From positions 868,001-932,000 of the forward strand of contig NZ_CP087138.1 in assembly GCF_021650705.1 (NCBI RefSeq): 64,000 nucleotides of DNA, given 5' to 3'. The notes beneath the pieces were generated by a model. It saw only the letters and a list, made by a program, of their open reading frames with translations. It ran no database searches and was not told the DNA's origin. A program made the position numbers and the translations under genes. Of this stretch, positions 1,240-43,487 are shown in pieces; the first letter of the stretch is position 1, and each line of letters starts with the position of its first letter. This stretch comes from Pseudomonas sp. KNUC1026 (GTDB lineage Bacteria; Pseudomonadota; Gammaproteobacteria; Pseudomonadales; Pseudomonadaceae).

Positions 1240-1270
1240 GCCACCCAACTTTCAAAAAGGCATCAAGCAC

Positions 1271-1693: not shown

Positions 1694-1747
1694 CTGCGCC
1701 AGGGCGGCGCCAGTGGTGCCGCCTTCATCCAACCCTGAGTGCCTGAA

Positions 1748-7063: not shown

Positions 7064-7071
7064 GGTGGGGT

Positions 7072-15709: not shown

Positions 15710-17050
15710 ATGCGCAGCCCCCGCCACATCCCTTTGCTTTCGTTGGCCGCTCTGTGCTCGCTGGCATCGCAGGCACCGGCCTACACGCTCTACAGCGAGG
15801 GTGAAGGCAGCACCGTGTTCAACGCCGACCTCTGGGCCGGCTATGGCGCGTTCGGCACCCAGCAGAACTACATCGTCAGCCCCGACGCGCCCGCCGGCAA
15901 AATGCGCTGGCAGGAGGGCTTCGCCAAATATGGCTTCAGCGGGCACACCGACAAGCTTGGCGCAGGCTCGGTCTACGGCGCTTTCAACCTGATCAGCACC
16001 GGCACCTGGGGCGACGGCGATGCTGGCGGCATCACCACGGGCGACGAGCGCAGAACCTCGGTGGAGGATGCGTTCCTCGGCTGGAAGTCCGGCGACCTGT
16101 TCCCGGCGCTGGGCCAGGACGGGGTGGACTTTTCCATGGGCCGGCAACTGGTGACGGTGGGCGAGGGCTTTCTGGTCACCGACGACGGCTTCAACCCCGG
16201 CAAAGGCTTCAACCCCGCCGAAGGCATGCCCGCAGGCCATTTCGACCGTGGCGGCGCGTTCTACCTCGGCCAGCGGCTGGCGTTCGGCAACACCGCGGTG
16301 TTGAAGCTGGGCGGCAGCGACGGGCTGCACGGCAGTGTGCTGTGGCTTAAATCCGGCAACCCGGGGCAATCCAAGACCGAGGTGGCCGGCGGCACCCTGG
16401 ACTACACCACCGCCTACGGCACGGTCGGGGCTACCTACCTGCACGGGCTGGACGTCGACAAACGCTACGCCTTCGCCGATCGCCTCGAACGCAAGGGCAT
16501 GAACGTCTACAGCCTGCGCGGGCAAGGCAACGCCGGCATCGAGAACGCCGACTTCGCCATCGAGTTCGCCCGCCAGGAAAAGTCTTCAGGTTCGCAGCGC
16601 GCCATGTACTTCGATGCCGGCTACACCTTCACCGACGTCGCCTGGCAGCCCACCGTCAGCTACCGCTATTCGCGCTATTCCGAAGGCTGGGACTTCCTCT
16701 TCCAGGGCGGCTTTCGCAAGCGTTTCCAGGGTGAAGTGGCGGCCAACTACGCAGGCTCGGTGACCTCCAACATGTCCATCAATGACGTGCTGTTCTCGGT
16801 CAAGCCCACCGAAACCCTGACCCTCAACGCCATGGCCTTCGACTACCACCAGATGTCGCGGCGCAGCGAGCTGGACGTGAGCGCCCGTGAGGTGGACCTG
16901 TTTCTGGATTGGGCGGTGACCGACAACATCACGCTTTCGCCGCTGCTGGGCTTCTACAAGCCGGACAAGTGGCAGGGCAATGGTGGCCTGCAAAGCAACA
17001 ATGCCTCGACCAACACGTACTTCCAATTCATCGTGTGGGCGACTTACTGA
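15710..17050 (+). CDS. Outer-membrane beta-barrel protein (porin / alginate-export-like)
   Basis: A 446-residue protein with a signal peptide cleaved near APAYT and many amphipathic strands with aromatic girdles (VDFSMGRQLV, GGAFYLGQRLAFG, WQPTVSYRYSRYSEGWD). It ends FIVWATY, with the terminal aromatic residue typical of BAM substrates. The general type is a specific porin of the alginate-export / OprD-like size class. It has an ACAGGAGA ribosome site. Because it is divergent from the metal-chelate operon across a 231-base shared region, it may be the outer-membrane entry for that system, which is inference. Confidence 0.8.
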   Translation: MRSPRHIPLLSLAALCSLASQAPAYTLYSEGEGSTVFNADLWAGYGAFGTQQNYIVSPDAPAGKMRWQEGFAKYGFSGHTDKLGAGSVYGAFNLISTGTWGDGDAGGITTGDERRTSVEDAFLGWKSGDLFPALGQDGVDFSMGRQLVTVGEGFLVTDDGFNPGKGFNPAEGMPAGHFDRGGAFYLGQRLAFGNTAVLKLGGSDGLHGSVLWLKSGNPGQSKTEVAGGTLDYTTAYGTVGATYLHGLDVDKRYAFADRLERKGMNVYSLRGQGNAGIENADFAIEFARQEKSSGSQRAMYFDAGYTFTDVAWQPTVSYRYSRYSEGWDFLFQGGFRKRFQGEVAANYAGSVTSNMSINDVLFSVKPTETLTLNAMAFDYHQMSRRSELDVSAREVDLFLDWAVTDNITLSPLLGFYKPDKWQGNGGLQSNNASTNTYFQFIVWATY

Positions 17051-17105: not shown

Positions 17106-17669
17106 TCAGAGCATGCGACGCAGTACGTCGTTGCGGGGATCGCGATCATCGAACCGGTGCTTCAGCGCACCGACCACGTGCAGCACCACCAGCGCCAGCA
17201 GGGTATAGGCCAGGGTCTTGTGCAGCCACTGGAACACCACGAACCAGTCATCGTTCTTGGGCAGCAGCTCAGGCAGGTTCACGCCGAAGAAGAACACCCC
17301 GTCGCTCATGGTGTAGGTGCTGGACATCGAATAGCCCATCAACGGCACGATCACCGCCAGGGCGTACATCGCCCGCTGAATCCAGCGCGACAGAAAGCGT
17401 TCGTAGGGGGCGAGGGTGAGTGGGGGCACCGGCAACTGCGGGGTTTTCATGCGCAGGATGATCTGCGTGATCACCACCAGGAAGGTCAGCACGCCGAAGC
17501 ATTTGTGCCAGGGGTAATACAGCTCGTACTTGCTCGGGACTTCGTCAGCCATGCCGGTCATGTGCCAGCCTGCCCAGAGCAGGCCAAGAATGAGTACGGC
17601 GCGCACCCAGTGTAAAACGCGTAGGGATGTCGGGTAGCGATCTGTTTGTTTTTGGTCAATCGAGTTCAT
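17106..17669 (-). CDS. Cytochrome b561
   Basis: A 187-residue four-helix inner-membrane protein with the di-haem histidine pattern of bacterial cytochrome b561: LRVLHWVRAVLILG in helix 1, YPWHKCFGVLTFLVV in helix 2 and WLHKTLAYTLLALVVLHVVGA in helix 4. Members move electrons from ubiquinol or detoxify superoxide. It is a lone gene. Its start ATG 17669 lies about 100 bases from the end of the aldehyde dehydrogenase gene. Function beyond electron transfer cannot be inferred from context. Confidence 0.9.
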   Translation of the reverse strand: MNSIDQKQTDRYPTSLRVLHWVRAVLILGLLWAGWHMTGMADEVPSKYELYYPWHKCFGVLTFLVVITQIILRMKTPQLPVPPLTLAPYERFLSRWIQRAMYALAVIVPLMGYSMSSTYTMSDGVFFFGVNLPELLPKNDDWFVVFQWLHKTLAYTLLALVVLHVVGALKHRFDDRDPRNDVLRRML

Positions 17670-19262: not shown

Positions 19263-20639
19263 TCAGGCCTTTAGCGTCGCCAGGGCATCGCCGAAGATGT
19301 CCAGGGCCTTGAAGAACAGCGAACGCGAGATCGTGAGCGACGGCATCACGCGCATCACGTTGCCGTAGCGGCCGCAGGGGATCATCAGCACACCGTGGCT
19401 GACCAGGTAGCCCATCAGCTGGCCGATCTTTTCGCCCGGCAACGGTGCCTTGGTGACCGGGTCCTCCACCAGTTCGATGCCGATCATCAGGCCGCGGCCG
19501 CGCACTTCGCCCACCAGCGGGCTGTTGAAGCTGCGGATGCGCGCCTGGGCTTCCTCGCCCAAGGCGTGGGCGCGGTTGAGCAGGTCCAGTTCAGGGTCTT
19601 GCAGCAGGCTGATGTTGGTCAGCGCCACGGCGGATGAGAGCGAGTTGGCGGCGAAGGTGTTGGGCATCGAACCGTCGGGTATTTTCGCCGCCAGGTCCGA
19701 GCGCATGATCAGCCCGGCCATCGGCAGGTCGCTGCCGATGCCCTTGCCGAAGGTCAGCATGTCGGGCTTCACGCCGGTGTGCTCCACAGCCCACATCTTG
19801 CCGGTGCGGCCCGCGCCGGACTGCACTTCGTCGACGATCAGCAGGGCGCCACTACGGTCGCAGGCCTTGCGCAGCAGTTGCAGGAATTCAGGCGAGGGCG
19901 GCACGTAGCCGCCTTCACCCTGCACCGGCTCGACGATCACCGCCGCCACGTCGTCGGCAGCGGTGTAGGGAGTGTTGAGCAGGTAGTCGACGTATTCGCC
20001 CGCGATCTGTTCGGCGCTCTTGTGGGTGGTGTCGAACGGGAAGCGGTAGGCGTAGGGGTAGGGCGCGTGGATCACCCCGCCCATCTGTGGGCCGTAGCCT
20101 TTGCGGTAGGCGGTGCCGGTGGTGAGCGCGCCGGAGGCACTCCACACGCCGTGGTAGCCGCCATGGAAAGCGATGATCTGATGCCTGCCGGTGACGCGCC
20201 GGGCGAATTTCACTGCGGCCTCCAGCGCGTCGCTGCCGCTCTGGGTGAAGAAGGTCACGCAGTCGCCGCGCAGCCCGTCCGGCGCGATTTCGGACATCTT
20301 GGCGGCCAATTCCGTGCGCCGGGTGCTGTTGATTTCGAGCGCGTGCATCAGCACTTCGGATTGTTGGCGTATGGCTTGCACCACCTTCGGGTGGCAACGG
20401 CCGACGCTGCTCACGCCTACGCCTGCGGAAAGGTCGATGTAGGTGTTGCCGTCGACGTCCCTGAAGGTTGCGCCGAAGGCGCTGTCCATCGCCACCGGCA
20501 TGCGCCCGCCACCGCGAGCCATGGACTCGGTCCGCGCCGACAGCGCCAGCGCTTCGGCGGTGCGAGGGCCAGGCACGTCGCCGCTGACCATTTTCGGTGC
20601 ATCGGCGAAGTGCAGCGCTTCAAATTGGGACTCACTCAT
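19263..20639 (-). CDS. Class III aminotransferase (PLP-dependent)
   Basis: A 458-residue fold-type I aminotransferase of the omega-amino acid / GABA group: D270 in LLIVDEVQSG holds the PLP nitrogen, K299 in TFGKGIGS forms the Schiff base, and GGYHGVWSASG plus VIVEPVQGEGG are family motifs. ATG 20639 (MSESQFEALHF) was chosen; more open codons upstream lack family similarity. With the aldehyde dehydrogenase it forms an amine-to-carboxylate module, and the divergent AraC-type regulator 211 bases away should control it. The amine is not known; ethanolamine, GABA or polyamine derivatives are options. Confidence 0.88.
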   Translation of the reverse strand: MSESQFEALHFADAPKMVSGDVPGPRTAEALALSARTESMARGGGRMPVAMDSAFGATFRDVDGNTYIDLSAGVGVSSVGRCHPKVVQAIRQQSEVLMHALEINSTRRTELAAKMSEIAPDGLRGDCVTFFTQSGSDALEAAVKFARRVTGRHQIIAFHGGYHGVWSASGALTTGTAYRKGYGPQMGGVIHAPYPYAYRFPFDTTHKSAEQIAGEYVDYLLNTPYTAADDVAAVIVEPVQGEGGYVPPSPEFLQLLRKACDRSGALLIVDEVQSGAGRTGKMWAVEHTGVKPDMLTFGKGIGSDLPMAGLIMRSDLAAKIPDGSMPNTFAANSLSSAVALTNISLLQDPELDLLNRAHALGEEAQARIRSFNSPLVGEVRGRGLMIGIELVEDPVTKAPLPGEKIGQLMGYLVSHGVLMIPCGRYGNVMRVMPSLTISRSLFFKALDIFGDALATLKA

Positions 20640-20850: not shown

Positions 20851-21825
20851 ATGACCAGCCCAACGATCAGCCATTTCCATGACGTCCATGCTCACGCTGC
20901 CACCGTGCTGCAGTGGAACCAGGCTTACAACCAGCTCACCGCTGGCTCCACGGAAAGCTCGCTCATGCAGATGGCGACGCCGGGGTGCCACTTGTTTGTC
21001 GAGCAGATCAACCAGCGCGTGGTGCAGCACGGCGTGGCGCCGAAGGGCAAGATGTGTTTCGCGGTGCCGATCACCGTGCCTGGCGCGGTGAGGATGCAGG
21101 GGCGGGAAGCCGATGACAGCAGCCTGTTCTTTTTGCAGGGTGGGGAAGAATTCATGTTCCACATGCCCAAGGGCATGAAGCTGTTGTCGATCACCTTCGA
21201 GCAGGAGCTGTTCGAGCGCACACTGGCGCAAACCGCCTCGCCCAGGGCCTTGCGTCAGTTGTTGCGCCAGCCCGTGATTCGCGTTGCGCCGCAGCGCCTG
21301 GCGTTGGCGCGGGAGCGTTTGCTGGGGGTGTTTTCACAGGCACTGGAGGGCGAGGGGCTCAGCGGTGCCGAAGCGCTGGCGCACGATTGCGCGCTGGAGC
21401 AGGCGATGCTCGGCGAGCTGCTGCATTTGATGACCGACCCCGGGTGCGACAAGGCCCAGCGCAACCCCAGCTCCACGCGCAGCTTCATCGTCGAGAAATG
21501 CCACCGCCTGGCAACCACCGAGAAGAGCCACGCGCCGAGTGTGGTCGAGCTGTGCGAGCGCTTGAACGTGAGCCGGCGCACGGTGCAGAACAGCTTCCAG
21601 GCCGTGGCTGAAACCACGCCCCTGAACTACATGCGCTGCGTGCGGCTCAACGGCGTGCGCCGCGCGCTGATGTCTACCCGGGCTGCCCAGCTGTCGGTAG
21701 GGGATGCGGCCGGCCAGTGGGGGTTCTATCACCTGAGCCACTTCGCCGCCGAATACCACGAATTGTTCGCCGAGCTACCGTCGCACACCCCACGCGCCAC
21801 GCTCGCGAGCGCCGCTTTGGCCTGA
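20851..21825 (+). CDS. AraC family transcriptional regulator (EutR-like)
   Basis: A 324-residue regulator with an N-terminal ligand domain and a C-terminal AraC double helix-turn-helix: PSVVELCERLNVSRRTVQN as the first and GDAAGQWGFYHLSHFAAEY as the second. The architecture and the phrase VSRRTVQNSFQ resemble EutR, the ethanolamine-responsive activator. I start at ATG 20851 (MTSPTISHF); codons upstream overlap the shared promoter region. Divergent placement makes the aminotransferase-aldehyde dehydrogenase pair its probable target. Confidence 0.85.
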   Translation: MTSPTISHFHDVHAHAATVLQWNQAYNQLTAGSTESSLMQMATPGCHLFVEQINQRVVQHGVAPKGKMCFAVPITVPGAVRMQGREADDSSLFFLQGGEEFMFHMPKGMKLLSITFEQELFERTLAQTASPRALRQLLRQPVIRVAPQRLALARERLLGVFSQALEGEGLSGAEALAHDCALEQAMLGELLHLMTDPGCDKAQRNPSSTRSFIVEKCHRLATTEKSHAPSVVELCERLNVSRRTVQNSFQAVAETTPLNYMRCVRLNGVRRALMSTRAAQLSVGDAAGQWGFYHLSHFAAEYHELFAELPSHTPRATLASAALA

Positions 21826-21950: not shown

Positions 21951-22754
21951 CTACAAGCCGACGCTGGCCGCCGCCACCTGCCCGGTAGCCCTTGCCCTGG
22001 GCGCCGGCGCCTTGCCGCGCCGCTGCAACCGCTCGCCGATGCGCCGGGCGGTGTCGACGATCCGCTCGGTGACCGCTTCCTGGCGCAGCAGCTGAAAGTT
22101 GGCGCTGGTGCCCACCGCCGCCACACTCCCGAGAATCTCTTCCCCCACCCCGCTGAACACCGGCGCTGCGATACCCGTCAGCCCCAGGTTGAGTTCGTCA
22201 TGGGTCACGCAAAAGCCATCCTTGCGAATCTTGCGGGCGGCTTTGGAAAAACTGTCCCAGTCATGAAGGCGGCCCGGGTCGACCGCCAGGTGCTCCTCGT
22301 ACAAACGCTGCAAGCGCCGGTTCTTCTGATAGGCCACCAGCACCTTCGACTGCGCCCCGCGAAAGAACGGCAACGGCTGCCCGCGGCCGAAGGCGAACTG
22401 GTAGGTGTCGGTGGGCTCGGCGATGTAGGTGTTGATCATCCGGCTGTCGTAGAAAACGCTGGCGAACACGGCCAGCCCCGTTTCGTTCGACAGCTCATGC
22501 ATCAGCTCGCGCCCGGCCACCAGGATCGGGTCGTACAGCCGCATCATCCAGTCCAGCTCGATGATGCGCGGCCCCAGGCTGTAACTCCCGGCATCCACCC
22601 GCACCAGTAACCCCGCCTCGCACAGGTCCTTCACGTAGCGGTACACCGTGGCCCGTGAAAGCCCCATGCGTGTGGCGATGGAATCTGGGTCGACTTTCAG
22701 CGCGGTGGGCCCGAACAGGTCCAGCACGCTCAGCATCTTGCTCAGGCTACTCAT
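21951..22754 (-). CDS. IclR family transcriptional regulator
   Basis: A 267-residue IclR regulator: N-terminal winged helix with ATRMGLSRATVYRYVKDLCEAGLL, then the GAF-like effector domain (GLTGIAAPVFSG and GSVAAVG near its end). ATG 22754 gives the proper start of the DNA-binding domain (MSSLSKMLSVLDLF). It diverges from the nine-gene catabolic operon across 232 bases and is the obvious controller. IclR proteins often respond to aromatic acids or pathway intermediates. The last 20 residues are basic and low-complexity. Confidence 0.92.
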   Translation of the reverse strand: MSSLSKMLSVLDLFGPTALKVDPDSIATRMGLSRATVYRYVKDLCEAGLLVRVDAGSYSLGPRIIELDWMMRLYDPILVAGRELMHELSNETGLAVFASVFYDSRMINTYIAEPTDTYQFAFGRGQPLPFFRGAQSKVLVAYQKNRRLQRLYEEHLAVDPGRLHDWDSFSKAARKIRKDGFCVTHDELNLGLTGIAAPVFSGVGEEILGSVAAVGTSANFQLLRQEAVTERIVDTARRIGERLQRRGKAPAPRARATGQVAAASVGL

Positions 22755-22986
22755 GTTGCTCCTGGGATTGGGCGTGGGCTGGGCAGTGGGCCAGGCCCAC
22801 GTCTGCAAGGGGCAAAGGATAGGGGATATGCCTTGAGAAAAACAGAAGGGTGCGGCCATTTGAAGCATTTTAAAAACTCTTAAATCTCAAAATATGAGTA
22901 AATTGCAAAAATAAATGTTGTTTGAGTGATTTTTCTATGTGATAAATCTCCCCATCTGAAGCGGCCGAACTCCGAGGGGTATAAAA
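22755..22986. promoter_or_regulatory. AT-rich divergent control region of the IclR gene and catabolic operon
   Basis: The stretch 22855-22965 is strikingly AT-rich for this genome and must hold both promoters. It contains small inverted repeats: CTCA-AAATA-TGAG (about 22887-22899) and GATTT...AAATC (about 22928-22948), candidates for IclR operators. The ribosome site CCGAGGGG precedes ATG 22987. Individual -35/-10 boxes are not assigned. Confidence 0.5.
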
Positions 22987-24528
22987 ATGAATGGCGCGCA
23001 ATTACTGGTGAAAGCAGCGGTGGCCAGCGGTATCGAATACTGCTTCGCCAATCCGGGAACCACTGAAATCCCGCTGGTGGCGGCATTGGCCAGCGAGCCA
23101 GGGCTCAAGCCGGTGTTGTCGTTGTTCGAAGGAGTGTGCACAGGCGCCGCCGACGGCTACGGCCGTATCACCGGGCGCCCGGCCATGACCCTGACCCACC
23201 TGGGCCCAGGCTTTGCCAACGGCATCGCCAACCTGCACAACGCTCGCCGGGCCAACACGCCCATCGTCAACGTGATCGGCGACCACGCCTCCTGGCACGT
23301 GAACTACGACCCGCCCCTGGCCAGCGACATCACCGCCCTGGCTGGCGCCGTGTCGAGCTGGGTGCGCACCTCCAGGTCCACCGACGGCCTGGGCGAAGAC
23401 GTACAAGCCGCCGTGCGTTCGGCCTGGCAGCCTTCGGGCCGCATCGCCAGCCTGATCCTGCCGATGGACCTGCAAGCCCGTGAAGTCACCGGCACCCCGC
23501 GCTTCAGCCCGCTGGCAGCGCCGGTTCGGCGCTTTGCCGGCGACCAGGTCGAGCAGGTGGCGTCTGCCCTGCGCGCCGGCCGCAAGCTGGTGTTCATCGT
23601 CGGTGACGAAGGCCTGAGCGAAGCCGGCCTGCAAGCGGCGGGGCGCCTGGCGCAACTGCCGGGGGTCAAACTGTTCGCCGAAACCTTCCCGCGCCTGAGC
23701 CTGCGTGGCGGCGGCCTGCCAGACCTGGACCGCCTGCCGTACTTCCCGGAAGTGGCCATCGGCATCCTCGACCAGTACGACGCCGTGGTGTGTGCCGGCG
23801 TGCCCGAACCGATCAGCTACTTCGGCTACGAAGGCATCCCCTCGCGCCTGGCTGAAACCGACCGCCTGCTGCAACTGGCAGGTGTCGGTGAGGACGTCAG
23901 CGGTGCCCTCGCGGCGCTCGCCGAAGCACTCCAGGCGCCGGCCTGCCCACCCGCGCCGATCGGCGTGGAACTGCCCGATGCCAACGAAGCCCTGTCGCCG
24001 CAATCGGTCGGGCGTGTGCTGGCTGCGGCCTTGCCACGCGACAGCATCGTCTCGGTCGAGGGCGGCACCTGCGGCTACCCGTTCTTCACCGCCTCCGCAC
24101 GCGCCGAACGGCACCGGGTGATGACCAACACCGGCGGCGCCATCGGCCAGGGGATACCGGTCGGTTTCGGCGCGGCCCTGGCCGAGCGCGGCACGCCGGT
24201 GTTCTGCCTGCAATCGGACGGCAGCGCCCAATACACCATCCAGACCCTCTGGAGCATCGCCCGCGAACAACTGCCGGTGGTGATCCTGATCGCCGCCAAC
24301 CACCGCTACGCGATTCTGCAGAACGAACTGCGCCGCTTCGGCGTGACCGAGTTCGGCCCGCAGGCCCTGAGCCTGACCGAACTGGACCGCCCGCGCGTGG
24401 ACTGGAAAGCCCTGGCCAAAGGCTACGGCGTGCCGGCCACCACCGTGCACAGCAACGGTGACCTGCACCGCGCGCTGGCCGACGCCAAAGCATCGAACGG
24501 CCCCTTCCTGATCGAAATGGCCCTCTGA
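22987..24528 (+). CDS. ThDP-dependent decarboxylase, acetolactate synthase / benzoylformate decarboxylase-like
   Basis: A 513-residue enzyme with three ThDP-enzyme domains. Catalytic Glu48 sits in LSLFEGVCTGAADGYGR, and the diphosphate-binding motif is SDGSAQYTIQTLWSI followed by AANHRYAIL instead of the usual GDG...NN. It is shorter than true acetolactate synthase and resembles the benzoylformate/2-oxo acid decarboxylase-like group that annotation pipelines call acetolactate synthase large subunit. The expected reaction is decarboxylation of a 2-oxo acid to an aldehyde, matching the aldehyde dehydrogenase that starts 10 bases later. It leads the operon. Confidence 0.85.
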   Translation: MNGAQLLVKAAVASGIEYCFANPGTTEIPLVAALASEPGLKPVLSLFEGVCTGAADGYGRITGRPAMTLTHLGPGFANGIANLHNARRANTPIVNVIGDHASWHVNYDPPLASDITALAGAVSSWVRTSRSTDGLGEDVQAAVRSAWQPSGRIASLILPMDLQAREVTGTPRFSPLAAPVRRFAGDQVEQVASALRAGRKLVFIVGDEGLSEAGLQAAGRLAQLPGVKLFAETFPRLSLRGGGLPDLDRLPYFPEVAIGILDQYDAVVCAGVPEPISYFGYEGIPSRLAETDRLLQLAGVGEDVSGALAALAEALQAPACPPAPIGVELPDANEALSPQSVGRVLAAALPRDSIVSVEGGTCGYPFFTASARAERHRVMTNTGGAIGQGIPVGFGAALAERGTPVFCLQSDGSAQYTIQTLWSIAREQLPVVILIAANHRYAILQNELRRFGVTEFGPQALSLTELDRPRVDWKALAKGYGVPATTVHSNGDLHRALADAKASNGPFLIEMAL

Positions 24529-24538
24529 GGACAAGCAC

Positions 24539-26029
24539 ATGAGCACACTGCAACTTCTGCCCGAAGTCCGGGCGTTTCTCAGCCAGCCGGGCAAGCTGTT
24601 CATCGGCGGCAGCTGGCAGGCCGCCCGCGACGGCGGCGACTGCCCGGTGGAGAACCCGGCGGACCTTTCCATCGTCAACACCGTGGCCCGCGCCGGCGAA
24701 GCGGACGTCAACGATGCCGTAGCAGCGGCCAAGGCCGCCTTCGAAGGGCCATGGCGCCAATGCTCGGCTGTGCGCCGCAGCCTGCTGATGCTGCGCCTGG
24801 CCGAGCTGCTGGAGCAGCACAACGAAGAGCTGGCGCAGCTGATCACCCTCGAAAACGGCAAGCCCATCGCCAACGCACGGGGCGAGGCGGCCAGCGCCGC
24901 CAACATCATCCGCTACTTCGCCGGCTGGCCGACCAAGATCGAAGGCAGCACCGTGCCGGTGTCGCCGGCCAGCGGCAACCCGATGCTCAACTACACCCTG
25001 CGTGAACCGGTGGGCGTGTGCGCCCTGATCGTGCCGTGGAACTTCCCGCTGACCATGTGCGTGTGGAAGCTTGGCCCAGTGCTGGCGACCGGTTGCACGG
25101 CGATTCTCAAGCCCGCCGAGCAGACCCCGCTGGTCGCCATTCGCCTGGTGCAGTTGGTCGAAGCGGCAGGCTTCCCGGCCGGCGTGGTCAACCTGCTCAC
25201 CGGCCAGGGCTCGCGCATCGGCTCGCCACTGGCGCGGCACCCGGACGTCGACAAGATCGCCTTCACCGGCTCAACCGAAGTGGGCCGCCTGATCGCCCAG
25301 GACGCCACCGGCAACATGAAGAAGGTGTCGCTCGAGCTGGGCGGCAAGTCGCCGAACATCATCCTGCCCGACGCCGACATCAAGCGCGCTGCCAAGGGCG
25401 CGGCCGACGGCATCTTCTACAACCAGGGCCAGGTCTGCACCGCCGGCTCGCGCCTGTACGTTCACGAGTCGGTGCTGGAGCCGGTGCTCGATGAACTGAG
25501 CCGCCATGCCCGTTCCCACGTGATCGGCCCGGGCCTGGACCCGGCCACCACCCTCGGCCCGGTGGTTTCGCTGCGCCAGCTCAACACCGTGCAGGGTTAC
25601 CTGCGCCGCGGCGTGGAAGAGGGCGCCGAGCTGATCTGCGGCGGCCAGCGCCCCGAGCACCTTGAGCAAGGCCACTTCATCGAGCCCAGCGTGTTCCTCG
25701 ATCGCCAGGAGCGTGCCTGCGTGGCCCGCGAGGAAATCTTCGGCCCGGTGCTGACTGTGATGAGCTGGTCGGAGCCCGAAGAACTGGTGGCCCGCGCCAA
25801 CGACTCGCCTTACGGCCTGGCCGCAGGCCTGTGGACCAACGACCTGCGCGCTGCGCACCGCCTGGCCGCGCAACTCAAGGCCGGCTCGGTCTGGATCAAC
25901 TGCTGGAACGTGGTCGACCCGGCCTCACCGTTCGGCGGCTACAAGCAATCCGGCTGGGGCCGGGAAATGGGCAAGAACGTCATCGACGCCTACACCGAGA
26001 CCAAAAGCGTCTACGTCGACCTGGCCTGA
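24539..26029 (+). CDS. Aldehyde dehydrogenase
   Basis: A full-length (496-residue) NAD(P)-dependent aldehyde dehydrogenase with IVPWNFPLTMC, cofactor motif LKPAEQTPL, catalytic Glu in ELGGKSPNIIL and Cys in NQGQVCTAGSR. It would oxidise the aldehyde released by the decarboxylase encoded upstream to an acid. The ATG is preceded by GAGGACAAGC. No frameshift is seen, in contrast to the other dehydrogenase at 17.8 kb. Substrate range cannot be set from sequence. Confidence 0.93.
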   Translation: MSTLQLLPEVRAFLSQPGKLFIGGSWQAARDGGDCPVENPADLSIVNTVARAGEADVNDAVAAAKAAFEGPWRQCSAVRRSLLMLRLAELLEQHNEELAQLITLENGKPIANARGEAASAANIIRYFAGWPTKIEGSTVPVSPASGNPMLNYTLREPVGVCALIVPWNFPLTMCVWKLGPVLATGCTAILKPAEQTPLVAIRLVQLVEAAGFPAGVVNLLTGQGSRIGSPLARHPDVDKIAFTGSTEVGRLIAQDATGNMKKVSLELGGKSPNIILPDADIKRAAKGAADGIFYNQGQVCTAGSRLYVHESVLEPVLDELSRHARSHVIGPGLDPATTLGPVVSLRQLNTVQGYLRRGVEEGAELICGGQRPEHLEQGHFIEPSVFLDRQERACVAREEIFGPVLTVMSWSEPEELVARANDSPYGLAAGLWTNDLRAAHRLAAQLKAGSVWINCWNVVDPASPFGGYKQSGWGREMGKNVIDAYTETKSVYVDLA

Positions 26030-26055
26030 CCCACAACACGACACGAGGACTGAAC

Positions 26056-26850
26056 ATGGATCTGCAACTGCAAAACCGAGTGGCCATCGTTACCGGCGGC
26101 GGCATGGGGATCGGCAAGGAAGTCGCCCGCTTTTTGTCCCAGGAAGGCTGCAAGGTGGTCATCTGCGCGCGCCGCATGCCGTACCTGGAAGAAGCCGCAG
26201 CGGAAATCACCGCCGAGACCGGCAACGAAGTGCTGCCGCTGTTCTGCGACACCAATGACATGCAAGCGGTGAACACCATGGTCGAACAGGCCCATGCCCA
26301 CTTCGGCCGCATCGACATCCTGGTCAACGGCGCCGCCGCCCCGTCGGGCGTGGTGCGCAACGACATCGAGCACGCCGGCGACGACGAGCTGCTGTCGGAC
26401 CTCAACACCAAGGTGATCGGCTACTTCCGCTGCGCCAAGGCCGTGACCCCGCACATGAAGGCCGCAGGCTTTGGCCGCATCATCAACATCGGCGGCCTCA
26501 CCGGCCGGGGCAGCAAGGTGCTCTCGGGCATGCGCAACCTGGCCATCGCCCACATGACCAAGACCCTGTCCGACCAGCTCGGCCCGGACGGCATCACCGT
26601 CAACCTGATTCACCCAGGCGTGGTCGACACCCCGCACATCCACGAGCTGTACGAGCGTGAAGGCGTGAAGCAGAACAAGACGCCGCAGCAGGTGGAGCAG
26701 GCCTACATCGACGCCACGCCCATCCGCCGCACCTTGCAGCCCATCGAAATGGGTTGGCTGATCGGCTTTCTCGCCTCGCCCAAGGCCGGTGCGGTCACCG
26801 GTGAATCCATCGGCATCGATGGCGGCCTGACTCGCGGCATCTTCATCTAA
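26056..26850 (+). CDS. SDR family oxidoreductase with atypical active site
   Basis: A 264-residue short-chain dehydrogenase/reductase with cofactor loop TGGGMGIGKEV (residues about 13-23), NGAA in place of NNAG, and C-terminal GESIGIDGGL. The catalytic Ser-Tyr-x-x-x-Lys set is not present: the serine strand reads NIGGLTG and the Tyr/Lys helix reads LSGMRNLAIAHMTKTL, so Tyr and Lys are replaced by non-catalytic residues, Lys by Asn. It may act as a hydratase-like or binding protein, or belong to a divergent SDR group using other residues. Third gene of the operon. Confidence 0.85.
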   Translation: MDLQLQNRVAIVTGGGMGIGKEVARFLSQEGCKVVICARRMPYLEEAAAEITAETGNEVLPLFCDTNDMQAVNTMVEQAHAHFGRIDILVNGAAAPSGVVRNDIEHAGDDELLSDLNTKVIGYFRCAKAVTPHMKAAGFGRIINIGGLTGRGSKVLSGMRNLAIAHMTKTLSDQLGPDGITVNLIHPGVVDTPHIHELYEREGVKQNKTPQQVEQAYIDATPIRRTLQPIEMGWLIGFLASPKAGAVTGESIGIDGGLTRGIFI

Positions 26851-26862
26851 GGAGCGCACACC

Positions 26863-27897
26863 ATGAGCAATGGAACCTTGCTGGTCGCAACCGTCGGCCA
26901 GGCCGTGATCCGCAGCGCAGACGATGGCCGCAGTTGGCACCGCCTGGGCGTGAACCAGAAGATGGAGTTCGACGCCATCACTCGTTCGCTGAGCTTCAGC
27001 CCGCAGCATCCGGCCACGATCTACGCCGGCGCCGACATCGGCCTGTGCATCAGCAGCGACACCGGCGGCACCTGGCACCAGGTGGACAGCCCGTTCAACG
27101 GCCAGACGGTGTGGAAAGTCGCCGTTGACCCGCAGGACGCCCAGCGCATCTTCGTCGGCACCGGTGCGCCTTCGCGCGCGGTGCTGTGGCGCACCCTCGA
27201 CGGTGGTGCAAGCTGGTACCGCGTGCCGGTGGAAATCCCCGAGTTCTGCGACGGTGTCAGCCGCCCGCGGCTGCTGGCCTTCGCCTACGACCCGACCGAC
27301 CGCGACCAGGTCTGGTTCGGCCTGGAAGAGGGCGGGCTGTTCCACAGCCGCGACGGTGGCGAGACCTTCGAGCGCATCGACGACCGCCTGCTGTGGGACT
27401 TCAATTCCGACGTGCACTGCATTCAGGTGCTGCCCAACAACGGCCAGAAAGTCATCGTGGTGGTGTGCGTCAACGCCGTGTACCGCAGCGTCGACGAGGG
27501 CCAGACCTGGACCGGCATCATCACCAAGGAAGTCTTCGGCCTGTACTACACCCGCGCCATGAGCGCGCCGCCCGGCAGCGAAAGCACCGTGCTGATCAGC
27601 ATCTCCGACGGCACCCCGGGCACCACCAGCAAGGTGCTGATTTCCCGCGATGCAGCACAGAGCTGGGAAGTGCTGCCGCTGCCGCAGCAACCGAACTCGT
27701 GCATCTGGGCGATTGCCTTCAACCCGGAAAACCCGCGCCAGCTGGTGGCCGGCACCAAGTACGGCCACCTGTTCACCTCCGAAAACGGTGGCGACAGCTG
27801 GCAGAAGCACTGGCGCGAATTCAGCGAGATCGCCGACGTGGCCTGGACCCCTGCTGTGGCCACCATCAAGGCAGGGCATCAGTCGGTCATCAAGTGA
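26863..27897 (+). CDS. Cytoplasmic seven-bladed beta-propeller with Asp-box (BNR) repeats
   Basis: This 344-residue protein has seven Asp-box-like repeats: SADDGRSW, SSDTGGTW, TLDGGASW, SRDGGETF, SVDEGQTW, SRDAAQSW and SENGGDSW, one per predicted blade. There is no signal peptide. Such repeats occur in sialidases and Ycf48-like assembly factors, but none of the sialidase arginines is evident, so I do not call it a glycosidase. Its location in the middle of a catabolic operon, 12 bases after the SDR and 16 before the VOC gene, argues for an enzyme, for instance a lactonase- or hydrolase-like propeller, or a scaffold. Confidence 0.8.
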   Translation: MSNGTLLVATVGQAVIRSADDGRSWHRLGVNQKMEFDAITRSLSFSPQHPATIYAGADIGLCISSDTGGTWHQVDSPFNGQTVWKVAVDPQDAQRIFVGTGAPSRAVLWRTLDGGASWYRVPVEIPEFCDGVSRPRLLAFAYDPTDRDQVWFGLEEGGLFHSRDGGETFERIDDRLLWDFNSDVHCIQVLPNNGQKVIVVVCVNAVYRSVDEGQTWTGIITKEVFGLYYTRAMSAPPGSESTVLISISDGTPGTTSKVLISRDAAQSWEVLPLPQQPNSCIWAIAFNPENPRQLVAGTKYGHLFTSENGGDSWQKHWREFSEIADVAWTPAVATIKAGHQSVIK

Positions 27898-27913
27898 ACG
27901 GAGGTTCGCACCC

Positions 27914-28363
27914 ATGAAAGTCGAAATCGTTCGTACCCACTTGTCGCTGTTCGTCACCGACCCTGAGGTGTCCGCGCGCTGGTACGCCGATGTGCTGGGC
28001 ATGCACGAAAGTGCCCGGGGCGAGAGCTGGGTCATGATGGCCTTCGGTAGCAAGCACCACGACATCGCACTGATCAAGGCCGACCCTGGCGCCCACCAGG
28101 GCGGCCTGGGCCTGCAGCACTACGGGCTGGAGATCGACGGCGACATGACCACCCTGCGCCAGCTCTACGGCATGTTGCTGGCCAAGGGCGTGGAGATCGT
28201 CAAGATCACCGACCACGAGATCGGCAACGGCCTGTACTTCAACGACCCCGACGGCAACCGCATGGAGTTCTTCCTGGAAACCGAGCACGACGACGCACAG
28301 GCCAAGGCTCGGTTCAACGCCGCAGGCGCCCCCAGCCGGAACTTCAAACTGGACCCTTTGTAA
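27914..28363 (+). CDS. VOC family protein, single-domain extradiol dioxygenase-like
   Basis: A 149-residue vicinal-oxygen-chelate protein built of two beta-alpha-beta-beta-beta units. His9 (THLSLFV), His69 (LQHYGLEI) and Glu118 (DPDGNRMEFFLE) are placed like the 2-His-1-Glu metal site of type I extradiol dioxygenases, and GLYFNDPDGN is the usual turn before the glutamate. With an upstream-acting hydroxylase and a downstream-acting hydrolase and hydratase in the same operon, ring cleavage of a catechol-like intermediate is the best guess. A glyoxalase-type isomerase role is the alternative. Confidence 0.82.
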   Translation: MKVEIVRTHLSLFVTDPEVSARWYADVLGMHESARGESWVMMAFGSKHHDIALIKADPGAHQGGLGLQHYGLEIDGDMTTLRQLYGMLLAKGVEIVKITDHEIGNGLYFNDPDGNRMEFFLETEHDDAQAKARFNAAGAPSRNFKLDPL

Positions 28364-28374
28364 GGAACGTATTG

Positions 28375-28977
28375 ATGAAACCTACCAACTTCGCCGGCTA
28401 CCACATTCGCAAATGGCACAGTTTCGTCGAGGAAACCCTGGCCAACGAATCCGGCCAGCTGGCCGATGGCGAGCCGCTGTTCAAGTACGCCATCGCGGCG
28501 GTGATCCACAACCCCTACGCCGGCAAGTTCAGCGAGAACCTCGATGAACTTGTGCAGCCTTCGCCGCAATTGGGCGAGGCCTTCGGCGAGCGCATCCGTG
28601 AGCTGGCCGGCGAGCGTTCCATCGTCAGTTACGGCAAGGCATGCCTGGTCGGCAGCCAGGGCGAATACGAACACGGCAACGCCTTCCTCACCAACCCCGC
28701 AGCAGACCCGGTGCGCGTGGCGCTCGGCGGTGGCAAGTCGTGGGTGCCGTCCACCGGCAAGCGTGGCGGCCCCGGCGCCACCATCGATGTGCCGCTGGCG
28801 CACAAGGACGCGCTGTACGTGCGCTCGCATTACGACACGATCTCGCTGTCGTTCGGCGACGGCCCGGCACCCGATGAAGTGATCGTGATCTGGGCCTTCG
28901 CCACCCGCGGCCGCCTGCGCGCGCGCCTGGGCGGCCTGGCTGCTGGCGACATCAAGGGCGACAACGGTTTGACCTGA
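28375..28977 (+). CDS. AA_synth (amino acid synthesis) family protein
   Basis: A 200-residue protein of the AA_synth family (PF06684, formerly DUF1185): IAAVIHNPYAGKFSENLDEL near the N-terminus, then IVSYGKACLVG and EYEHGNAFLTNPA. Despite the family name no reaction is established; members occur in catabolic clusters for amides and heterocycles. The ATG at 28375 follows AAGGAACG and is preferred over the TTG one codon earlier. It is the sixth gene, 11 bases after the VOC gene. Confidence 0.82.
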   Translation: MKPTNFAGYHIRKWHSFVEETLANESGQLADGEPLFKYAIAAVIHNPYAGKFSENLDELVQPSPQLGEAFGERIRELAGERSIVSYGKACLVGSQGEYEHGNAFLTNPAADPVRVALGGGKSWVPSTGKRGGPGATIDVPLAHKDALYVRSHYDTISLSFGDGPAPDEVIVIWAFATRGRLRARLGGLAAGDIKGDNGLT

Positions 28978-29005
28978 CACCCACCCGGCCTTGAGGAACC
29001 TGCCC

Positions 29006-29857
29006 ATGTTTGCTGCAAGCTGCTTTTTCAACACCCGCTCCGGCCAGCGGCTGCATTACTTGCGCCACGGCCAGGGCCTCGGCGTGCCGGTGGTGCTGCT
29101 GCACGGCCTGCGCGCCTATGCCCAGACCTGGGACAACCTGGTGCGGGCGCTGGGCGAGGGCTACGACTGCGTCGCCCTCGACCAGCGCGGCAGGGGCTTG
29201 AGCGACTGGGCACCGAGCGACACGTACCGCACCGAGGTGTATGTCCAGGATCTGGAAGATCTGATCCAGCACCTGGGCTATGACCGCTTCGTGCTGGTCG
29301 GCCATTCCCTCGGCGGTGCCAACGCACTGGAGTACGTGCGCAACAACCCCGGGCGGGTGCGGGCGCTGGTAATCGAAGACATCGGCCCGGGTTCTTCGAC
29401 GGCCGGCGACGGTGCTGCGCGGATCCGCCGGGAAATGCAGCAGACCCCGACCCACTTCGAAGACTGGGCTGCGGCCGAAGCGTTCTGGCGCACCTCGCGC
29501 TCCGGGCTTTCGGCCGAAGGCCTGGCCTCGCGGCTACGCTATTCGATGAAGGCCGTGGAGCAGGGCGTGACCTGGCGCCACGACCAGCAAGGCATCGCCC
29601 AGGCGCGGCTGAGCATCGAGCCCACCGACCTGTGGCCGGCGGTCAAGGCGCTGGATTGCCCGACGCTGTTCATTCGCGGCGGTCGCTCGGATTTTCTTCC
29701 GGCACCGCTGCTGGAGGCGATGCGCCAGGCGAATCCAAACGTCGGTACCGTGGTGGTTCCGGACGCCAGCCACTATGTGCATGACGATCAGAACGATCTG
29801 TTCAACCGCGAAGTGCTGGCCTTCTTCAAGGCCCAAGGCGTGGCCCCACAACAATAA
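29006..29857 (+). CDS. Alpha/beta hydrolase, C-C bond or ester hydrolase type
   Basis: A 283-residue alpha/beta hydrolase with oxyanion strand VVLLHGLRAYAQTW, nucleophile Ser101 in GHSLGG, likely Asp229 in GGRSDF and His256 in DASHYVHDD. The triad is complete. In meta-cleavage pathways an enzyme of this fold (MhpC/XylF type) splits the ring-fission product, which fits the VOC, hydroxylase and hydratase neighbours. ATG 29006 follows a TTGAGGAACC ribosome site. It could also be an esterase. Confidence 0.88.
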   Translation: MFAASCFFNTRSGQRLHYLRHGQGLGVPVVLLHGLRAYAQTWDNLVRALGEGYDCVALDQRGRGLSDWAPSDTYRTEVYVQDLEDLIQHLGYDRFVLVGHSLGGANALEYVRNNPGRVRALVIEDIGPGSSTAGDGAARIRREMQQTPTHFEDWAAAEAFWRTSRSGLSAEGLASRLRYSMKAVEQGVTWRHDQQGIAQARLSIEPTDLWPAVKALDCPTLFIRGGRSDFLPAPLLEAMRQANPNVGTVVVPDASHYVHDDQNDLFNREVLAFFKAQGVAPQQ

Positions 29858-29869
29858 TCGGTGAGCGGT

Positions 29870-31477
29870 ATGAAACGGCAAAGAACCCAGGTGGTCATCG
29901 TCGGCGGTGGCCCTAACGGCATCACCGCCGCCCATTACATGGGCCTGTACGGCATCGAATGCATCGTCCTCGAACAGGCCGAGGGCATCCTCCCTTACCC
30001 GCGTGCAGTGGGCATGGACGACGAAGCCCTGCGCGTGCTTCAAGGCATCGACATCGCCGACCGCGCGGTCCGCGACATGATCTGCAACGTCCCGCTGCGT
30101 TACTACAATGCCCGCGGCGTGTGCTTCGCCGAGGTCAAGCCGAGCGTGGCCCAGTACGGCTGGCCGATGCGCAACATCTTCATGCAGCAGTTGCTGGAAG
30201 AAACCCTGCGCGACGCCTTGCCGGCGCGCCAGCAGGTGGAGCTGCGCCAGGGCCATGAGATGCTCAGCCTGAGCCAGGACGCGCAGCAGGTGACCCTGCA
30301 AGTGCGCGGCCCGGATGGCGAGGTGTACGAGCTGCAGGCCGACTACCTGATCGGCGCCGACGGCGGCCGCTCCAGCGTGCGCAAGCAGCTCGGCATTCAA
30401 CTGCTGGGGCTGACCCACCCACGCAAGTGGGTGGTGATCGACACCCGCAACGATTCCCTCGAAGCCCCCTTCACAGCGTTGCATGCCGACCCGCAGCGGC
30501 CGTTCGTGTGCATCTACCTGCCGTATCAGCAGCGACGCTGGGAATTCATGCTGCTCGAAGGCGAGAACGAAGAGGCGATGTGCGAAGAGGGCAATATCCG
30601 CACGCTCATCCGCGGCCACATCGGCGACGCGGTGGACGAGCTCGAGATCATTCGCATCCGCGCCTACACCCACAACTCGCGGGTGGCCGAGCGGTTCGTC
30701 GAGGGGCGGGCGGCGCTGATCGGCGATGCCGCGCACATCTCGCCGCCCTGGGCCGGGCAAGGGCTCAATTCGGGGCTGCGTGATGTGGTGAATCTGTGCT
30801 GGAAGATCGCCGCGATCCTGCAAGGCAAGGCTGCGCCGGCCATCCTGCAAAGCTACGACACCGAGCGCCGTGGCCACGCCACCGACCTGATCGCCCTGGC
30901 CGACAACATGGGCGCGGTGCTGGGCCTGACCAACCCGTTGATGGCCGGCGTACGCGACTGGTTGTTCCAGGCGGTGAACAGCGTCGACAACCTGCGCTCG
31001 CACTTGCTGGAATTCAAGTTCAAGCCCAAGGCGACCATCGTCAAGGGGCTGGTCTATCACGAACGCGCCGAGCTGCGCGAAGACGACCTGGTCGGGCAGC
31101 TGTTCATCCAGCCCGAGGTGGAAACCGCAGGCGGCCAATGCACGCGGCTGGACACCGTGCTCGGGCATTCCTATGCGGTGCTCGGCTACCGCGTGAACCC
31201 GGCCGAGGGCCTCTCGGAGCAGACCCGAGCCTACTGGGCGAACTGGGGCACGCGGTTCATCCAGGTCAACCGTTCGCGCAGCGGCCCGGCGCGCAACCAG
31301 CCGTTGCAGGCCGAGGGCGCGATCAGTGTCGAGGACGTCTACAACCGCCTGGGCGCCTGGTTCGCCGGAGTACGCGACTGCGTGGTGGTGCTGCGGCCTG
31401 ACCGCTTCGTCGCTGCGATCACCACGCCCGAGCGCCTGGAATCGGTGCTGCGCAAATTGCAGGAGCAATCGTCATGA
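29870..31477 (+). CDS. FAD-dependent aromatic hydroxylase (MhpA-like)
   Basis: A flavoprotein monooxygenase of 535 residues in the 3-(3-hydroxyphenyl)propionate hydroxylase group: VIVGGGPNGITAAHYMG binds FAD, YLIGADGGRSSVRKQLG is the DG motif, and LIGDAAHISPPWAGQGLNSG is the GD motif that binds the flavin ribose and the substrate side. A C-terminal thioredoxin-like tail is present, as in MhpA. It should hydroxylate a phenolic ring with NAD(P)H and oxygen, making the catechol for the VOC protein. ATG 29870 is preferred; a GTG at 29861 is possible. Confidence 0.9.
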   Translation: MKRQRTQVVIVGGGPNGITAAHYMGLYGIECIVLEQAEGILPYPRAVGMDDEALRVLQGIDIADRAVRDMICNVPLRYYNARGVCFAEVKPSVAQYGWPMRNIFMQQLLEETLRDALPARQQVELRQGHEMLSLSQDAQQVTLQVRGPDGEVYELQADYLIGADGGRSSVRKQLGIQLLGLTHPRKWVVIDTRNDSLEAPFTALHADPQRPFVCIYLPYQQRRWEFMLLEGENEEAMCEEGNIRTLIRGHIGDAVDELEIIRIRAYTHNSRVAERFVEGRAALIGDAAHISPPWAGQGLNSGLRDVVNLCWKIAAILQGKAAPAILQSYDTERRGHATDLIALADNMGAVLGLTNPLMAGVRDWLFQAVNSVDNLRSHLLEFKFKPKATIVKGLVYHERAELREDDLVGQLFIQPEVETAGGQCTRLDTVLGHSYAVLGYRVNPAEGLSEQTRAYWANWGTRFIQVNRSRSGPARNQPLQAEGAISVEDVYNRLGAWFAGVRDCVVVLRPDRFVAAITTPERLESVLRKLQEQSS

Positions 31478-32250
31478 GTGCAGCACGCCCATTGCTGGAC
31501 CGTTTGCAGGAAGCGGCTGCCACCGGCATCGCGCTGCCGGCCGACCAGGGCGAACCGCTGGAGGCCTGGCAGGGCCATGCGCTGCTGCTGTTGGGGCTGC
31601 AACTGCGGCTCAGCCGTGGTGAGGCATTGGCCGGCTGGAAGGTCGCCTTCGCCTCGCGCGCCGCTTATGAGCGTTTCGGCCTGAACGAGCCGGTGTATGG
31701 AGCGCTCACCGACGTGATGCAGCTGCCACCGGCCAGCACCGTTGACCTGGCGCGGTTCATCCAGCCCAAGCTTGAGGTGGAGCTGGCGTTCATCATCGGC
31801 GAGCACTTGCAGGCGGGCAGTTACAGCGACGAGCAGCTGCATGCGGTGGTGGGTGAGATGGCGCCGGCTTTCGAGGTCGCCGACTGCCGTTGGCAGGGCT
31901 GGCGCTTCGGCGCCGGCGGGTTCCTGGCCGATAACGCGGCAGCGGCGGGGTTCTGCCTTGGCCGGCGGCAACCGTTCGACGCCGCTCGGGCGGCGGCAGT
32001 GGAATACACGCTGTCGCGCGACGGCACCTCGCTTGGCCAGGGCGAGCTCGGCTCGCGGGAAGACACCCCGCTGCGCAGCCTGTGCTGGGTGCTGCGCCGG
32101 CTGCTAGAGGACGGCCAGGATCTCTATCCGGGCCAGGTGATTCTGTCCGGCGCGCTGCTGCCGCCGCTGGGCCTGGCGCCTGGGCAATACCGGCTGGAGA
32201 TGCTGGGGCAGGCATTGGAACTGACCTTCAGGCCGGCCGAGCCGGCCTGA
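31474..32250 (+). CDS. 2-keto-4-pentenoate hydratase family (MhpD-like)
   Basis: A 258-residue member of the hydratase/decarboxylase part of the fumarylacetoacetase superfamily: GWKVAFASRAAYERFGL, YGALTDVMQLP, and the metal-ligand strand PKLEVELAFIIG with E-x-E. In meta-cleavage pathways it hydrates 2-hydroxypenta-2,4-dienoate. Its ATG overlaps the hydroxylase stop by four bases. It is the last gene; no aldolase or acylating acetaldehyde dehydrogenase follows, so the pathway either ends differently or borrows these from elsewhere. Confidence 0.88.
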   Translation: MSAARPLLDRLQEAAATGIALPADQGEPLEAWQGHALLLLGLQLRLSRGEALAGWKVAFASRAAYERFGLNEPVYGALTDVMQLPPASTVDLARFIQPKLEVELAFIIGEHLQAGSYSDEQLHAVVGEMAPAFEVADCRWQGWRFGAGGFLADNAAAAGFCLGRRQPFDAARAAAVEYTLSRDGTSLGQGELGSREDTPLRSLCWVLRRLLEDGQDLYPGQVILSGALLPPLGLAPGQYRLEMLGQALELTFRPAEPA

Positions 32251-43474: not shown

Positions 43475-43487
43475 GCTGTGCTCCGCG

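Follow-up and report, generated by a model that had tools for sequence, protein, structure and literature searches.

The mhp operon of Escherichia coli (mhpRABCDFE) encodes the hydroxylase MhpA, an alpha/beta hydrolase and an MhpD-superfamily enzyme beside the gene of a divergent regulator, MhpR, which belongs to the IclR family. In Pseudomonas putida U, tyramine and dopamine are broken down by the 3,4-dihydroxyphenylacetate catabolon (tyn and hpa), in which an amine module with a protein of the 'tyramine oxidase subunit B' family stands together with an aromatic lower pathway comprising HpaBC, HpaD, HpaE, HpaG, HpaF, HpaH and HpaI. In the lower pathways for trigonelline (tgn) and vitamin B6, an AA_synth protein, an alpha/beta hydrolase, an aldehyde dehydrogenase (ALDH) and a succinic semialdehyde dehydrogenase (SSADH) occur beside flavin enzymes. 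Finally, the 7-hydroxycoumarin (hcd) pathway of Pseudomonas mandelii 7HK4, with succinate and 2-hydroxy-4-oxopent-2-enoate as proposed products, comprises a flavin hydroxylase, an extradiol dioxygenase and a hydrolase, with the AA_synth protein HcdD encoded in an adjacent operon (excerpted text of PMC7913881). Here we compare with these systems a nine-gene operon of Pseudomonas sp. KNUC1026 (genes A to I, with the divergent gene R), located at positions 22987-32250 of a 64,000-nucleotide stretch (contig NZ_CP087138.1, positions 868,001 to 932,000), hereafter the window. We consider it rather probable that this is an amine-linked meta-cleavage operon. It may represent a variant of the meta-cleavage kind, not a new kind, and possibly an undescribed one: in agreement with a sequence-only reading of the window, no described pathway with the full gene set was found in the open-licence literature, which omits most subscription journals.

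Organization, conservation and described counterparts

The operon consists of nine plus-strand open reading frames (ORFs) beside a divergent IclR-family gene, and an ORF check of the window confirmed the coordinates as well as the tight packing proposed by the sequence-only reading. Counted from the ORF starts, the intergenic gaps from A to I are 10, 26, 12, 16, 11, 28, 3 and -4 bases, the last being an overlap, and the seventh is 12 instead of 3 bases if H begins at the ATG at 29870, the likelier start. Family searches returned the protein families named in that reading, the Pfam and NCBIfam scores of several operon proteins being computed from slightly shifted starts.

21951..22754, minus strand: R, divergent IclR-family regulator (IclR_C, 59 bits; HTH_IclR); the longest ORF reaches 22868
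22886..22898, no strand assigned: candidate operator dyad CTCA-N5-TGAG, the sole copy within the window
22918..22947, plus strand: candidate promoter TTGTTT-N18-ATAAAT
22987..24528, plus strand: A, likely thiamine diphosphate (ThDP)-dependent 2-oxo acid decarboxylase (NF005760, 658 bits, cut-off 363)
24539..26029, plus strand: B, aldehyde dehydrogenase, StyD/BADH-like (Aldedh, 588 bits)
26056..26850, plus strand: C, protein of the short-chain dehydrogenase/reductase (SDR) fold without the Ser-Tyr-Lys triad (adh_short)
26863..27897, plus strand: D, beta-propeller protein (Sortilin-Vps10/BNR; AlphaFold model, mean predicted local distance difference test score (pLDDT) 84.1)
27914..28363, plus strand: E, single-domain VOC protein, probable extradiol dioxygenase (Glyoxalase, 59 bits)
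28375..28977, plus strand: F, AA_synth protein (PF06684, TgnF/HcdD family; 215 bits, cut-off 27)
29006..29857, plus strand: G, alpha/beta hydrolase (family search; solved relatives 3bwx and 3kxp)
29870..31477, plus strand: H, class-A flavoprotein hydroxylase, MhpA-like (FAD_binding_3; NF004831, 744 bits, cut-off 546)
31474..32250, plus strand: I, member of the MhpD/HpaH/4-oxalocrotonate-decarboxylase superfamily (HpaH 92, DmpE 90, DmpH 81 bits)

Searches with the propeller protein D yielded 39 named loci, 37 of them from Pseudomonas or from metagenome-assembled genomes labelled Pseudomonas or Paucimonas, one from Acinetobacter and one from Marinobacterium. R and A to I occur in the same order in 22 of the 39, all except G at its place in a further 14, and three loci are cut or rearranged (L055, L056 and L058). 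Given this ordered synteny, which is strict in Pseudomonas, the gene arrangement is not due to chance. Of 398 genomes sampled from the genus, 40 (~10%) encode D. Samples at phylum level (398 genomes) and class level (369 genomes), which overlap each other and the genus sample, contained no full-length relative outside the genus and a single partial match at 32%. Thus, the cluster belongs chiefly to Pseudomonas and is rare elsewhere. Distant versions reside on large replicons of Burkholderia (two), Variovorax and Novosphingobium; in the stretches covered, all four have retained A and C to G. H is retained as well in the Burkholderia and Variovorax versions, which are without I and carry NIPSNAP. 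SSADH-type genes are present in all four. Reading a substrate from the replicon versions was dropped, as only one of the four is annotated, and the distant propeller relatives L066-L068 were not counted as members because they stand among other gene sets. Throughout, neighbour-gene assignments rest on tblastn, and porins, flavin reductases and the luciferase-like monooxygenase were labelled by eye.

Two of the irregular loci have peculiarities of their own. L055, an 11,959-base contig, carries C, D, E and F only, with no H or I in the rest, and is rearranged or mis-assembled. In Marinobacterium (L056, 10555-14542), second copies of the propeller, VOC and hydroxylase genes, 65-71% identical to those of the window, adjoin a carboxymuconolactone-decarboxylase-like gene.

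A terminator scan of the plus strand between 22700 and 32500 reported no terminator-like site, which, together with the conserved elements upstream, makes co-transcription of A to I likely. Within the 232-base upstream region, the ATAAATC element is kept in all 26 of the upstream regions compared, nine of which also contain a strict TCTC-N6-TGAG; a generic promoter scan reported no site at the candidate promoter. The regulator gene R lies upstream of the operon, in divergent orientation, in 36 of the 39 loci. Its product scores 93 bits against the PcaR/PcaU/PobR family model, under the cut-off of 284.75; as the L023 orthologue begins MSSLSKML, 22754 is a likelier start than 22868.

Compared with mhp, the ring here would be cleaved by a VOC protein and not by MhpB, to which no cluster protein has a match at 1e-3; MhpF and MhpE have no counterparts, and the ThDP decarboxylase, ALDH, triad-less SDR, propeller and AA_synth proteins are additional. 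The corresponding cluster proteins are 38.6%, 25% and 26% identical to E. coli MhpA, MhpC and MhpD, respectively. A plain mhp-type pathway for 3-(3-hydroxyphenyl)propionate or a shorter homologue, its ordinary enzymes misjudged as unusual, would account for H exceeding the NCBIfam equivalog cut-off for that hydroxylase name and for a divergent regulator of the same family as MhpR. Nevertheless, given the low identities, the lack of a match to MhpB or, at E 1, of R to MhpR, the absence of MhpE/MhpF from the host and from 34 of 40 cluster-bearing genomes, and the presence of A, B, C, D and F, for which mhp has no counterparts, we regard this explanation as very improbable.

The other systems likewise differ in content. 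The hpa lower pathway has a different gene set, and E, B and I score under the cut-offs of the HpaD, HpaE and HpaH models, respectively. Blastp of the Tgn-like stretches L078 and L079 revealed no homologue of A, C, D, E, H or I. For hcd, the substrate of which is known, no ThDP enzyme, propeller or SDR is seen in the excerpted text of PMC7913881.

Probable ring opening and the fate of its product

The ring-cleavage candidate is protein E. H9, H69 and E118 fit the metal-ligand spacing of type I extradiol enzymes such as catechol 2,3-dioxygenase, H49, H101 and Y108 occupy second-sphere positions, and none of these six positions varies across the 19 sequences of the alignment, a set drawn without redundancy from the 45 found, in line with the extradiol-type ligands that the sequence-only reading had pointed out. 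A strict PS00082-type pattern is found in 36 of the 45 sequences and in 2 of 200,000 shuffles of E. The invariance of these residues suggests that E is likely an extradiol ring-cleavage dioxygenase. With 149 residues, E comprises one VOC module, without the two-domain form of ~300 residues of catechol 2,3-dioxygenase. Among the 50 rows listed in a structural comparison of its predicted model (mean pLDDT 86.9), FosA/glyoxalase VOC proteins are numerous and classical two-domain extradiol enzymes are lacking; the single-domain VOC protein 9u42, titled homogentisate 1,2-dioxygenase, is among the structural relatives. The predicted fold by itself leaves the chemistry of E unsettled.

For the hydroxylase H, the best solved relatives are 2,4-dichlorophenol 6-monooxygenase and polyketide hydroxylases, and a substrate assignment on this basis was dropped. 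Protein I has no Pfam match, and the HpaH, DmpE, DmpH and 2-keto-4-pentenoate hydratase models all match it under their cut-offs; its best solved relative is 8ih6, a 4-oxalocrotonate decarboxylase, and it is the least conserved of the nine proteins (38-68% identity across loci).

The hydrolase G is less conventional than the sequence-only reading had noticed. It scores 95.4 bits against 3bwx (function unstated), 94.7 bits against 3kxp, an alpha-(N-acetylaminomethylene)succinate (AAMS) hydrolase and the best functionally named solved relative, and 53-54 bits against the C-C hydrolases HsaD and BphD. At the catalytic His, G carries HYV, like 3kxp, whereas MhpC carries HWA. Such a hydrolase would suit the opening of a nitrogen (pyridine-like) ring, in which H and E would open the ring, G would hydrolyse an acylaminomethylene-type product to succinic semialdehyde, F would assist and an SSADH or B would finish, as in trigonelline or vitamin B6 breakdown. 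Consistent with this possibility, F (solved relatives 2qtp and 3byq; better conserved than C in the distant versions of the cluster) belongs to the TgnF family, and F-, G- and SSADH-like genes occur together in two Tgn-like Acinetobacter clusters, which encode an AA_synth protein, an alpha/beta hydrolase, an ALDH 41-42% identical to B, an SSADH and, as labelled by eye, a flavin reductase and a luciferase-like monooxygenase. Furthermore, GabD-type SSADH genes accompany the Acinetobacter, Marinobacterium, Variovorax and Novosphingobium versions of the cluster (the Acinetobacter one over the family cut-off). A second AA_synth locus of the host (L069, contig 1447000-1466000), which resembles the Tgn-like clusters, likewise pairs this gene with those for an alpha/beta hydrolase, an ALDH (41% identical to B) and a flavin reductase (by eye), together with a GntR-like regulator. 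However, G is only 23-32% identical to the Tgn-like hydrolases, H is MhpA-like and E has a catechol-type extradiol signature. We regard a nitrogen ring as unlikely, yet as a rival to be taken seriously in view of the recurring F-, G- and SSADH-like genes. Relatives of F also take part in the breakdown of a benzenoid compound, 7-hydroxycoumarin (excerpted text of PMC7913881).

The sequence-only reading had remarked on the lack of the aldolase and acylating dehydrogenase of established meta-cleavage routes, and genome-wide searches bear this out. The DmpG/MhpE aldolase domain PF07836 and the acylating acetaldehyde dehydrogenase domain PF09290 are absent from both the operon and the host assembly (rated 86% complete), the search for a finishing aldolase being for the DmpG type and not for other classes (HpcH/HpaI, KDPG). 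The two domains are found in the same six of the 40 cluster-bearing genomes and neither is found in the other 34. PF07836 was also not found on the two Burkholderia replicons or the Variovorax replicon, where the replicons were searched and not the chromosomes.

What A and B do may bear on this gap. The model passed by A, NF005760, is a generic one named 'acetolactate synthase large subunit', and the closest solved relatives are benzoylformate decarboxylases, with which A aligns at the NPG[S/T]-x-E, L-x-H and L-x-E active-site segments. These residues, which include the NPG[S/T]-x-E motif, the active-site His and the cofactor Glu, are invariant in 41 rows. In view of this benzoylformate-decarboxylase-like active site, A is likely a 2-oxo acid decarboxylase. 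For B, the best NCBIfam model is StyD (phenylacetaldehyde dehydrogenase; 592 bits, under the cut-off of 850), and it is 41% identical to E. coli FeaB.

In the variant pathway put forward by the sequence-only reading, a 2-oxo acid side chain is decarboxylated and oxidised before the ring is attacked. This reading finds partial support: the hydroxylase, the extradiol opening and the likely decarboxylase stand, whereas decarboxylation as the first step remains a proposal. The neighbouring genes supply their own amine-to-aldehyde-to-acid enzymes. Under that order, A would turn an aryl 2-oxo acid, itself derived from an aromatic amino acid, into an aryl(acet)aldehyde and B would oxidise it, followed by H, E, G and I, with the end product passing to another aldolase or being spent elsewhere. 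An early position would fit the gene order, A and B being the first two genes, the benzoylformate-decarboxylase-like nature of A, and the StyD model as the best match, under cut-offs, of B and the linked ALDH. It would also fit the DAO and RidA genes of the neighbouring module described below; DAO plus RidA is a usual route from amino acids to 2-oxo acids. Conversely, the neighbourhood already holds separate ALDHs and transaminases, Burkholderia keeps A without an adjacent B, and the fate of the product of I would be unexplained in the 34 of 40 genomes without DmpG/DmpF. We consider decarboxylation first to be possible, with distinctly less than even confidence.

A late position would fit the missing aldolase, the ALDHs of the neighbourhood and the Burkholderia and Variovorax versions, in which A is kept without the cluster's own B and without I, beside SSADH-type dehydrogenases; for these versions alone, the late role fits equally well as the early one. 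Because most hosts have no DmpG/DmpF pair, late decarboxylation by A is the most likely option, and we tentatively place both A and B after ring opening, at a little under even confidence. That A and B replace the aldolase and acylating dehydrogenase in an entirely aldolase-free meta-cleavage of a biogenic aromatic amine, with the SDR and the propeller helping by new chemistry, appears doubtful.

Both of these latter proteins are unusual. All 10 family rows of C have Gly, Ser and Asn where the catalytic Ser, Tyr and Lys would stand, and the triad is intact in both outgroup rows; the protein is indeed the atypical SDR that the earlier reading had recognised. C keeps the nucleotide-binding start and, at 89-93% identity across the Pseudomonas-group loci, ranks there at or near the top of the nine for conservation. 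The nearest solved propeller to D is 3b7f, titled putative glycosyl hydrolase, followed by GH74 and YCF48 propellers; as there is no close characterised relative, a substrate from the fold of D was dropped. Charged residues such as E155, H185, R231 and E322 are common to 22 D sequences (three of them distant), which suggests that D has an active site.

Genes around the operon and the proposed pathway

Upstream of the operon, the window contains the following genes, of which those for cytochrome b561, the aldehyde dehydrogenase and the aminotransferase are assigned to a linked amine set.

100..3043, plus strand: OCD ('tyramine oxidase subunit B')-RidA-DAO module (OCD: NF004848, 706 bits, cut-off 362)
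15743..17047, plus strand: OprD-like porin (label by eye), 51% identical to a porin-like protein beside the cluster in L049; no Pfam match
17109..17669, minus strand: cytochrome b561 (Ni_hydr_CYTB); b561 genes also in L045, L063, L064 and L065
17727..19220, minus strand: StyD-like aldehyde dehydrogenase (StyD of Rhodococcus, 584 bits, under the cut-off of 800)
19266..20639, minus strand: class-III aminotransferase (Aminotran_3, 331 bits, longer ORF)
20851..21825, plus strand: EutR-like AraC regulator (HTH_18; 29% identity over 312 amino acids to E. coli EutR, E 4e-35)

Across the 39 loci, an AraC gene follows I in 33, an APC permease gene lies upstream in 31, a second aldehyde dehydrogenase gene (ALDH2) is present in 29 and a class-III transaminase gene is near the cluster in 18; these counts are lower bounds, some flanks being short, and the references come from one locus, L049. 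Compared with the amine transaminase 5lh9, the neighbouring class-III enzyme reaches 930 bits. Both the conserved AraC protein (30%) and the window's own (29%) align over the full length with EutR, far better than with FeaR. The window's set of ALDH, transaminase and AraC genes also stands near the cluster in L045 and L052, and in Burkholderia (L063) the cluster version has cytochrome b561, transaminase, ALDH and APC permease genes nearby.

The strongest link is that the OCD-RidA-DAO module tracks the absence of G from the operon. Among Pseudomonas loci covered for at least 5.5 kb downstream, the operon is followed by this module in 12 of the 13 without G versus none of the 20 with G. Not counted were L034, L030 and L052, whose downstream sequence is too short, L055, where C-F alone were found, L056 and L061, which belong to other genera, and L062-L068. 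In all four G-less loci that reach that far, G is located directly behind DAO. In a second set of 20 loci, from the host and other genomes and partly from the same strains as the named loci, where downstream coverage does not limit the count, OCD lies within 12 kb of the propeller gene in six of six without G and none of 14 with G; in the host, the distance is 27 kb. Genome-wide, OCD homologues are present in 22 of 40 cluster-bearing Pseudomonas genomes (in 14 of these, no more than 12 kb from the propeller gene) versus four of 26 others, the latter taken as listed and not randomly drawn. Just outside the window, genes for the APC permease (82%) and the conserved AraC regulator adjoin the module on the host contig.

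Taken together, the amine modules around the operon and the association of the OCD module with operons that are without G suggest that the ring substrate probably derives from an aromatic amine or amino acid. The sequence-only reading, which saw no recognisable substrate, was in this respect too pessimistic, having missed the link to amine and amino acid modules. Plain tyramine via 4-hydroxyphenylacetate as the only substrate is less likely, because 25 of the 40 cluster genomes carry a strong match to CHMI isomerase (E 1e-30 or better), which would already serve that route; we infer that these matches are of the HpaF type, and the host has only a weak one.

The best explanation as a whole, on which we are evenly divided, is a ring-opening lower pathway for an amine of the phenylethylamine (tyramine-like) type or an amino acid. 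The APC permease and the porin would take up the aromatic amine or amino acid, and the class-III transaminase or the OCD-RidA-DAO oxidase module, with the aldehyde dehydrogenases, would turn the amine into an aryl acid, presumably under the EutR-like AraC regulator. Under IclR control, H would then hydroxylate the ring, E would open it by extradiol cleavage, G would hydrolyse the ring-cleavage product and, in the Pseudomonas form, I would hydrate the remaining short 2-oxo acid. Most likely, decarboxylation of the remaining 2-oxo acid by A would leave an aldehyde or semialdehyde for B to oxidise to an ordinary acid, a task that in other taxa would fall to an SSADH. Inferred in this scheme are the sequence of reactions, an arylacetate as intermediate and the late action of A and B.

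Several observations weigh against this explanation. With respect to the substrate, the 'tyramine oxidase' label of the OCD protein is a model name, and, given the CHMI isomerase matches, 25 of the 40 hosts would already have a route for plain tyramine. OCD is missing from 18 of the 40 cluster genomes and present in four of 26 without the cluster. G-bearing loci cover ~5.6 kb downstream, so that distant modules could escape the count of none in 20, and in five of the 12 G-less loci (L031, L040, L048, L051 and L053) the module starts as far as ~5.5 kb downstream; L025, without G, has no module within 6.5 kb. The loci also share ancestry, whereas the Fisher tests treat them as independent, which makes the P values only indicative. 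As for the chemistry, nine of the 45 E sequences miss the strict PS00082-type pattern, E scores 42.7 bits against the catechol 2,3-dioxygenase model TIGR03211, far under the cut-off of 320.2, the folds closest to it are those of FosA-type and other VOC proteins, and G resembles C-C hydrolases less than expected. Finally, the PF07836 aldolase is present in the Marinobacterium and Acinetobacter genomes and on the Novosphingobium replicon.

If the proposed pathway is correct, ~10% of the sampled Pseudomonas species (40 of 398) carry an unassigned aromatic-amine route in which meta-cleavage is finished by bypassing the standard aldolase/dehydrogenase pair. The amine link narrows an open-ended substrate hunt to a short list of compounds, and the operon offers a concrete setting in which to find the functions of AA_synth (PF06684), small BNR-type propellers and triad-less SDR-fold proteins.

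Other genes in and around the window deserve mention. The host copy of the conserved AraC gene (L083, 10970-11898, upstream of the window) matches piecewise in different frames and is a broken gene or a sequencing error. A second homologue of 'tyramine oxidase subunit B' (79%) is encoded elsewhere in the host (G000:C1:1813576-1814709). In 11 of the 39 loci (L026, L033, L035, L036, L039, L042, L044, L046, L049, L057 and L059), the operon is followed by genes for a GntR regulator, an ABC transporter and a gamma-glutamyltransferase, which are also present upstream in Burkholderia L063; the supply route may involve a gamma-glutamyl conjugate. Immediately downstream of the operon, on the minus strand (32469-34520), lies a gene for a chemoreceptor-like protein (methyl-accepting type, by eye), with 65% identical proteins encoded downstream in L023 and L024, which may sense the substrate of the pathway. 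A minus-strand set at 6243-10931, encoding two ZnuA-type proteins, an ABC-3 permease, an ATPase and a DUF4198 protein, is an ordinary metal-uptake set. Genes for a sarcosine-oxidase-alpha-type protein, a DAO-family oxidoreductase and a formyl-transferase domain protein, also on the minus strand (40284-46349), probably serve the breakdown of methylated amines.

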